Assembly (NCBI RefSeq): GCF_017696085.1
Contig: NZ_JAAORH010000003.1
Span: 372,001 to 436,000 of the forward strand
Reading direction: 5' to 3'
Length of the DNA: 64,000 nt
DNA from: Prochlorococcus marinus XMU1410
GTDB taxonomy: Bacteria; Cyanobacteriota; Cyanobacteriia; PCC-6307; Cyanobiaceae
A program made the translations under genes and the position numbers. How positions within the stretch are numbered: the stretch's first letter is position 1; the number at the start of each line of letters is the position of its first letter. Shown here piece after piece: positions 39,236 through 40,478 of this stretch. The notes under the pieces are model-generated. The model was given only the letters and a program-made list of their open reading frames with translations. It was not told the origin of the DNA and made no database searches.

Positions 39236-40327
39236 TTATAAGTGAATCATTTGTGAAGAGCCTAAAAAAGAATGATTAAATTTATCTAAATGTGTCGCAC
39301 TTATAAAACATTGACTATCTTTACCAACAGAATTTAATAACAAATTTTGCCTTGTTAAATCTAATTCCGCCAAGACATCATCCAATATGAGTATTGGAGG
39401 AACATTTAATGTTTTAGTTAATAAATCGAGTTCAGCCATCTTTAAAGCCAAGATAAAAGTCCTTTGCTGTCCTGAGGAACCATATTTTCTAACCGAAACA
39501 TTATTGATTAGAAACTCAACATCATCACGATGAGGTCCAAAATTACATTTACCAGTCAATGCTTCTATTGAACGCTGATTTAAGAGTTGTTCTGCTATTT
39601 TTTTACTAATAACTTCTTCTTCTTCTTCTTCTGGACTTATATTTTGTATCCCCGAAAGATAATTTATGTCTATTTGCTCTTTAGATTTACTTAAATGATT
39701 ATGCCAATATTCAACATATGGTTTTATCTTTAATAAAGCTCTTCTTCTACGCCTAAAAATTCTTGTACATATTATTGACATTTGAATATCAAAACTTTCA
39801 ACAATATCTGTGGATTGGGTTTTTAAGAAGCTATCCGAACGCCAAAAATGACTTCTTTGTTTTAAAAGCCTATTAAATCTACTTATGAGATCTAAATATA
39901 CTGGTTCGAGCTGAGATACGACTTTATCAATCCATGTTCTTCGATAACTGGGTTCACTTCTAACAATATCTATATCATTTGAACAAAAACATACACTCCG
40001 AATATAATTCTTTATTTCACTCTGTTTTTTCAAGATTGATTCATTGACATAAATTCTTTTAGGCCCTTTTCGGAATAAATTTAACTTTAAATCGTCTTTA
40101 AAATTTATCTGTCCTATAACTACAGCCATATCGCTGTCGTTCTCTATTAAATCTTTATCGCTTAGTGCTCTATTAGATTTTAATTGACTTAAAAATTCAA
40201 TCGATTCAAGTAAATTTGACTTGCCAATGCCATTGCAACCAAGAACAATTGCTCTTTGCTCTTTTAGATCAATTTCAAAACTTTTATGGTTCCGAAAATT
40301 TTTAATTTTTAATTTATTTAAAAAAAT
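39236..40327 (-). CDS. recF: DNA replication and repair protein RecF (start codon unclear)
   Basis: An SMC-like ATPase that loads RecA on gaps. The translated minus strand gives a full-length protein of 363 residues from 40327: KIKNFRNHKSFEIDL, Walker A GCNGIGKS (30-37), KYGSSGQQRTF (signature) and ILILDDVLAELD (Walker B). The first in-frame ATG lies only after the P-loop (40129), which would remove Walker A. Upstream the frame stays open to a stop at 40402-40400 but contains no ATG, GTG or TTG. ATT at 40327 is the nearest plausible start. See findings for a slippage alternative. Confidence 0.85.
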   Translation of the reverse strand: MFLNKLKIKNFRNHKSFEIDLKEQRAIVLGCNGIGKSNLLESIEFLSQLKSNRALSDKDLIENDSDMAVVIGQINFKDDLKLNLFRKGPKRIYVNESILKKQSEIKNYIRSVCFCSNDIDIVRSEPSYRRTWIDKVVSQLEPVYLDLISRFNRLLKQRSHFWRSDSFLKTQSTDIVESFDIQMSIICTRIFRRRRRALLKIKPYVEYWHNHLSKSKEQIDINYLSGIQNISPEEEEEEVISKKIAEQLLNQRSIEALTGKCNFGPHRDDVEFLINNVSVRKYGSSGQQRTFILALKMAELDLLTKTLNVPPILILDDVLAELDLTRQNLLLNSVGKDSQCFISATHLDKFNHSFLGSSQMIHL

Positions 40328-40404
40328 TTTTTTTGTGCATTCATTAATTAAATTAGCTAAGTTTAAAATGTTTAGATTTTCTTTAAAGAAATTGAAAAAT
40401 TAAA

Positions 40405-40478
40405 GGGCATGTAGCTCAGTTGGATAGAGCATCAGATTCCGGTTCTGAGAGTCGGGGGTTCGAATCCCTCCATGCTCG
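40405..40478 (+). tRNA. tRNA-Arg (CCG)
   Basis: A 74-nt tRNA: acceptor GGGCATG/CATGCTC with one G-U pair and discriminator G. The D arm has AGCTCAGTTGGATAGAGC, the anticodon loop TTCCGGT gives CCG (reads CGG), and the T arm has GGGGGTTCGAATCCCTC. No CCA is encoded. It reads away from recF. Confidence 0.96.

Follow-up and report, generated by a model that had tools for sequence, protein, structure and literature searches.

Translation of recF in Prochlorococcus probably starts at an AUU codon kept as AUU or AUC across the family

Introduction

In Escherichia coli, only two genes, infC (coding for IF3) and pcnB, are said to start at AUU in PMC9410913, which ties the AUU of infC to IF3 self-regulation. 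For Staphylococcus aureus, PMC13009471 describes AUN starts at cvfC1 (AUU), ccpN and citZ (both AUA) and infC (AUA). Those of cvfC1 and ccpN are conserved and were found on re-annotation, an extended Shine-Dalgarno sequence is predicted for cvfC1, ccpN and infC, and in poor medium the signal of reporters for cvfC1, ccpN and citZ was about 10% of that with AUG (PMC13009471).

The recF gene is stated to be present in all 76 cyanobacteria studied in PMC5101192, in the accessible text of which the term "start codon" does not occur. The accessible text of PMC5009743 holds no passage on non-canonical starts of this kind in recF, crtR or cyanobacteria, and PMC full texts, titles and abstracts yielded no paper on a non-canonical start of recF, of crtR or in cyanobacteria, most subscription papers lying outside PMC. 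Here we describe a recF gene in a stretch of 64,000 nucleotides (the window), together with its counterparts in related genomes.

The recF Reading Frame and Its Proposed Start Codon

On the minus strand of the window, the RecF frame is open for 387 codons between a TAA at 40402-40400 and the stop codon ending at 39236. Its first in-frame ATG, GTG or TTG is the ATG at 40129, located beyond Walker A, and none of the three canonical codons gives an intact protein in this genome. The initial annotation had reported the lack of any normal in-frame start before 40129, the presence of two out-of-frame ATGs (40344 and 40340) and an A8T7 run at 40334-40320, and a recheck of the sequence agrees on all of these points. 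The frame does contain an in-frame ATT at 40327-40325. The features of the locus are as follows:

39236..40327, minus strand: recF coding sequence with the ATT as codon 1, comprising 363 codons and a stop, matching TIGR00611
40325..40327, minus strand: ATT, the proposed recF start codon (AUU in the mRNA), based on alignment with Met1 of other cyanobacterial RecF proteins and on conservation in the family
40320..40334, minus strand: A8T7 tract overlapping the recF start, judged incidental because relatives with ATT/ATC carry it in broken form or lack it
40338..40344, minus strand: two overlapping out-of-frame ATGs (40344 and 40340)
40349..40355, minus strand: TAATTTA (TANNNTA), lying 28 nt before the ATT, a candidate -10 element for either strand with a putative promoter role
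40405..40478, plus strand: tRNA-Arg (CCG), divergent from recF, found with ARAGORN

Counted from the ATT, the protein matches the RecF profile TIGR00611 from position 1 to 339 of 339 (E=3.5e-83), its 279.6 bits standing above the NCBIfam cut-off of 172. It is the only full RecF match in its genome, where a second, weak match (E=4.6e-4) lies inside a 1197-codon frame. In the alignment, the ATT occupies the exact place of the usual RecF start. The most probable reading, to which we assign a probability of roughly 0.85, is that recF translation starts at the AUU of 40327-40325 without a Shine-Dalgarno sequence, and that AUU or AUC serves as the recF start family-wide.

Codon 1 in the Family and beyond It

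The 5' end of recF was read in 174 loci of the window's genus (90 of 121 RecF places, read as sets of 30 and 60, 80 loci retained from 190 candidates, and four more), which include genomes met twice and comprise 147 distinct sequences over -60 to +300, 27 duplicates being dropped. In other genera of the family 104 loci were read (24 and 80), 103 of them parsed by script and one (L246) by eye; about 34 further RecF places from the search of relatives stand outside the counts. The family, which appears in the data only as a code, is taken here to be the Cyanobiaceae, and its other genera are presumably further Prochlorococcus lineages and Synechococcus/Cyanobium relatives. The outgroup covered 30 of 114 genomes from other families, and of its 30 loci 21 belong to the same class and nine share only the phylum. 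The start position (codon 1) was set by its distance to the FRN motif, and placement by tblastn gave the same codon for L176-L199.

Within the window's genus, codon 1 is ATT in 146 of the 147 distinct loci and ATC in the other one. The 103 parsed loci of other genera have ATT in 61 cases, ATC in 31 and ATG in four (L246 likewise reads ATT), while seven loci (L293, L300-L304 and L306) have instead an ATG one to six codons upstream. The family total over 250 distinct parsed loci is therefore 207 ATT, 32 ATC, four ATG and seven others, meaning that ATT or ATC is present in 239, although the loci are related and such counts are not independent tests. At the same codon, ATG, GTG or TTG was found in all 30 outgroup loci (29 parsed, L212 read by eye). 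Conservation of an AUN codon at the Met1 position is thus a property of the family, set against canonical starts outside it.

The composition of codon 1 is also telling. ATA is found there in none of the 250 family loci, though it makes up 42% of the 5821 isoleucine codons elsewhere in the same recF genes (ATT 2589, ATA 2457, ATC 775), which argues that codon 1 is a start and not a mere isoleucine codon. In most loci an earlier canonical start is blocked by the upstream in-frame stop, with no such codon between this stop and codon 1 in 187 of the 239 ATT/ATC loci. In 176 of these 187 loci the next canonical codon downstream is reached only after the F of FRN, and in 109 only after Walker A. 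Outside the genus, the in-frame stop stands just two or three codons upstream of codon 1 in 23 of 92 ATT/ATC loci. As a counterpoint, some in-frame canonical codon exists upstream in 52 of the 239 loci, one lies within the first 10 codons downstream in 11 of the 187, and in 9 of the 147 distinct genus loci the 24 nt before codon 1 contain an ATG in frame. Given the upstream (52/239) and near-downstream (11/187) codons, single species may start recF elsewhere.

The recF Leader

A tRNA-Arg(CCG) gene lies beside recF in all 19 family loci scanned and in none of four outgroup loci, one of which has a tRNA-Asn gene. A TANNNTA motif, most often at -28 or -29, occurs within -36 to -15 in 259 of 277 family loci versus 1 of 29 in the outgroup. 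Because either strand of this motif gives a -10-like TANNNT, it suggests a divergent promoter shared by recF and tRNA-Arg(CCG). The recF mRNA would then begin downstream of the motif, with a short leader of about 15 nt.

Support for the recF start from a Shine-Dalgarno sequence was looked for and is mostly absent. No match of at least 4 bases to AAGGAGGT was found at -18 to -4 in 131 of the 147 genus loci and in 75 of the 92 other ATT/ATC loci. Since the sequence is also missing in the outgroup, where 27 of 29 loci with normal starts lack it, its absence cannot be seen as a mark of the AUU start.

Alternative Explanations for the recF 5' End

Three options had been left by the initial annotation, namely an ATT start, slippage on the A8T7 run, or an indel in that run. 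The comparison of recF 5' ends in relatives, which it had proposed, lends strong support to the ATT start and goes against the other two. Transcriptional or ribosomal slippage would join ATG 40344 to the RecF frame, or ATG 40340 if one A were lost. The geometry for this is right in the window's own genome, and 114 of the 147 distinct genus loci carry a run of 7-8 A. Without slippage, ATG 40344 reads M-N-A-Q-K-K-F-F-stop; at least one ATG lies within 24 nt upstream of codon 1 in 140 of the 147. However, ATT or ATC is kept in relatives where the run is broken, shortened or absent: the A-run falls below six in 32 of the 147 distinct genus loci, no A precedes the codon's own A in 88 of the 92 ATT/ATC loci outside the genus, and ATT/ATC is retained in the seven genus loci without any ATG within 24 nt upstream. 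In loci of other genera, the 30-45 nt inspected ahead of codon 1 did not show the 40344/40340 pair, and joint conservation of the run and of an upstream start, as expected of programmed slippage, was not found among the relatives. The tract itself (A8 at 40334-40327, T7 at 40326-40320) is not rare, with four A6+T6+ tracts in the window. L031, L076 and L104, for instance, have a run shorter by one base, which puts their equivalent of ATG 40340 in frame at a distance of four codons ahead of the ATT. If translation bypasses the run, such single-base changes in length are to be expected in front of a gene that itself stays the same. Together with the four family loci having ATG at codon 1 and the seven having it one to six codons upstream, these loci correspond in part to what the initial annotation had counted as contrary evidence, relatives with a conventional in-frame start at the same place and without the run. 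Slippage gains nothing from them; the conventional-start exceptions support codon 1 as the start site. Compared across the relatives, the A-run is irrelevant to the retention of codon 1, and slippage was rejected as very unlikely. An error of sequencing or assembly in the run could be suspected as the cause of the missing start, homopolymer tracts being error-prone in general. Nevertheless, the recurrence of ATT in 146 of 147 distinct genus sequences, from many separate assemblies, implies that the ATT at 40327 is not a sequencing error, and a canonical start is equally missing in relatives devoid of the homopolymer. The likelihood of an indel, also rejected on the basis of the relatives, is consequently close to nil.

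Translation could otherwise begin at another codon, be it an unusual neighbour of the ATT, a downstream ATG or TTG that would leave RecF truncated, or, in some species, an upstream start that is not conserved. The upstream and near-downstream canonical codons mentioned above (52/239 and 11/187) speak for this view. Against it, each of the bases from -12 to -1 outside the genus is kept in at most 0.73 of the loci, as opposed to 0.93-0.96 for those of codon 1 (A, T, C-or-T), downstream starts would mostly delete FRN or Walker A, and the four ATG exceptions fall on codon 1 itself. A start at another codon is therefore regarded as unlikely. The same drop in conservation bears on the idea that ATT/ATC is maintained as part of a tRNA-Arg promoter element or as a protein-binding site, and not as a start. 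All 19 family loci that were scanned do have the tRNA-Arg(CCG) gene nearby, but the bases just before codon 1 are far less conserved than the codon, which gives no support to an overlap with a tRNA promoter element. In addition, recF would still require a start, and no canonical one exists upstream in 187 of 239 loci, which makes this idea highly improbable. Initiation at the conserved ATT/ATC codon remains the preferred reading.

History of the ATT/ATC State

A FastTree phylogeny was built from 206 RecF proteins with codon 1 omitted, including 74 of the 174 genus loci (the 100 left out being mostly near-copies), 103 loci of other genera and 29 of the outgroup. On this tree, the distinction between ATT/ATC and canonical codons needs a minimum of six changes (21 for all six states), and none of 500 shuffles was as low as six. 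Most simply, these data fit a history in which ATT/ATC arose once at the root of the family, reverted to ATG on four separate occasions and gave way to an upstream ATG in one clade. The tree carries warnings regarding the meeting of long branches and uneven letter make-up, and its deepest order is unsure. Judged from the distribution of codon 1, the proposed AUU/AUC start of recF goes far back in the window's family.

Other Candidate AUN-start Genes in the Genome

Codon usage in the stretch preceding the first canonical start was scored for 1225 ORFs over 1.256 Mb (77%) of the 1.63 Mb four-contig genome, whose contig 3 holds the window. For coding signal before the first canonical start, recF ranked first in a scan of 456 kb (405 scored ORFs) and third in the larger one, in which only 5 of the 1225 ORFs had a gap of at least 60 codons before a canonical start. 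Several of the other top-ranking frames may owe their place to chance, being short or low in score.

The top rank in the larger scan belongs to crtR, the beta-carotene hydroxylase gene (G000:C1:231526-232560, minus strand), the product of which scores 470.2 bits against NF045688, with a cut-off of 475. In this gene (loci L488-L517 and L548), no ATG, GTG or TTG is present in the first 103 codons of the frame. The codon before S-N-L is ATT in 26 and ATC in two of 28 genus loci (L516 and L517, unparsed, were left out), with a stop two codons upstream in five of the 28, and from these sequences ATT/ATC looks like the crtR start in the window's genus. Outside the genus (L549-L576), ATG, GTG or TTG is found 79-84 codons before HDACH in 27 of 28 loci, L572 having one only at 67. 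The ATT of crtR is thus specific to the window's genus.

A gene for a 3-methyladenine DNA glycosylase (PF02245; G000:C1:230471-231058, minus strand; L458-L487) has no canonical start in its first 60 codons. In 24 of the 25 parsed genus loci (of 30) ATA is found, and in L485 ATC; 22 of the 25 have a stop two codons upstream, and L475 has an in-frame ATG upstream. In the search outside the genus, 16 of the 29 loci listed second to thirtieth were parsed, one of which (L577) is of the same genus. Of the 15 outside loci, read by eye, six are free of canonical codons from the last stop to the conserved motif, and the rest have one or show no clear limit.

The gene of a SpoU-type methyltransferase (PF00588; G000:C3:166748-167623, minus strand; L359, L360 and L389-L417) lacks a canonical start in its first 55 codons. 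ATA-GAA stands seven codons before I-T-S in all 28 parsed genus loci (of 31; L410, L416 and L417 unparsed); two of these 28 also contain a canonical codon at some distance upstream. Among 26 parsed loci of 28 outside the genus (L364 doubtfully parsed), eight have a TTG one codon before I-[TS]-S and six have no upstream canonical codon.

In a TIGR04168 phosphoesterase gene (G000:C1:621150-621995, plus strand; L518-L547), an in-frame stop directly precedes ACA/ATA GAA AAA ATT in 29 of 30 loci. An out-of-frame ATG is located before an A6 run and is in frame in L546. From its sequence this case is ambiguous, slippage and an ATT start being both possible. Beside it, on the opposite strand, an ORF (G000:C1:620144-621115, minus strand) that we take to be NadA from reading its translation has no canonical codon in its first 19.

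Taken together, recF is probably not alone among AUN-start genes, the other cases being less tested. For the proposal that marine picocyanobacteria use genuine AUU, AUC or AUA starts in a few conserved genes, without Shine-Dalgarno sequences or IF3 autoregulation through AUU, the chances seem evenly balanced; it would cover recF at the level of the family and crtR, the glycosylase, the SpoU-type and possibly the TIGR04168 phosphoesterase genes at that of the genus.

Possible Consequences of AUU Initiation

Initiation at AUU 40327-40325 would produce a RecF of 363 residues with the N-terminus (f)Met-Phe-Leu-Asn-Lys-Leu. In the proposed mechanism, the initiator tRNA would read the AUU or AUC of recF, IF3 would discriminate against these codons, and initiation would be weak, as at other AUN starts, so that RecF would be limited. 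In E. coli, too, recF is translated poorly, and its excess is harmful. It is plausible, at about even odds, that the AUU start serves to limit RecF. The making of a pigment enzyme by crtR fits poorly with a role of ATT/ATC starts in keeping products scarce.

The maintenance of AUU/AUC on a core recombination gene across a family of abundant marine phototrophs was unexpected. If this reading is true, RecF dosage would be set in part by the choice of start codon, and the family would offer a natural system for near-cognate initiation without Shine-Dalgarno sequences. A true set of AUN-start genes would indicate either a layer of control at translation or a relaxed start-codon rule. Gene finders limited to ATG, GTG and TTG would miss starts of the recF type, and if the reading is true, recF, crtR and other genes may carry wrong annotated N-termini in many genomes.

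Comparison with Known AUN-start Systems

Like infC and pcnB of E. coli, recF would be a chromosomal gene with an AUU start. Unlike the E. coli situation, in which infC carries the AUU, the infC of the window's genus starts at ATG, 13 of 15 genus loci having the sequence TGA ATG CCN CCA there (L330 and L334 unparsed). An AUN start on infC, the basis of autoregulation of the infC type, was thus not found in these 13 loci, and the feedback half of an IF3 circuit such as that of E. coli was not seen.

The proposed recF start resembles those of S. aureus cvfC1 and ccpN in being a conserved AUN codon, and by analogy with AUN starts recF would be translated weakly. It differs from the S. aureus cases in lacking a Shine-Dalgarno match of at least 4 bases in 206 of the 239 ATT/ATC loci, a long Shine-Dalgarno sequence at the proper distance not being found for recF, and in using AUU or AUC over a whole family. 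The nearest point of reference is RecF of other families of the phylum, which belongs to the same protein family (TIGR00611) and begins at the same N-terminal position, with ATG, GTG or TTG in each of the 30 loci read, where the window's family would use AUU or AUC.
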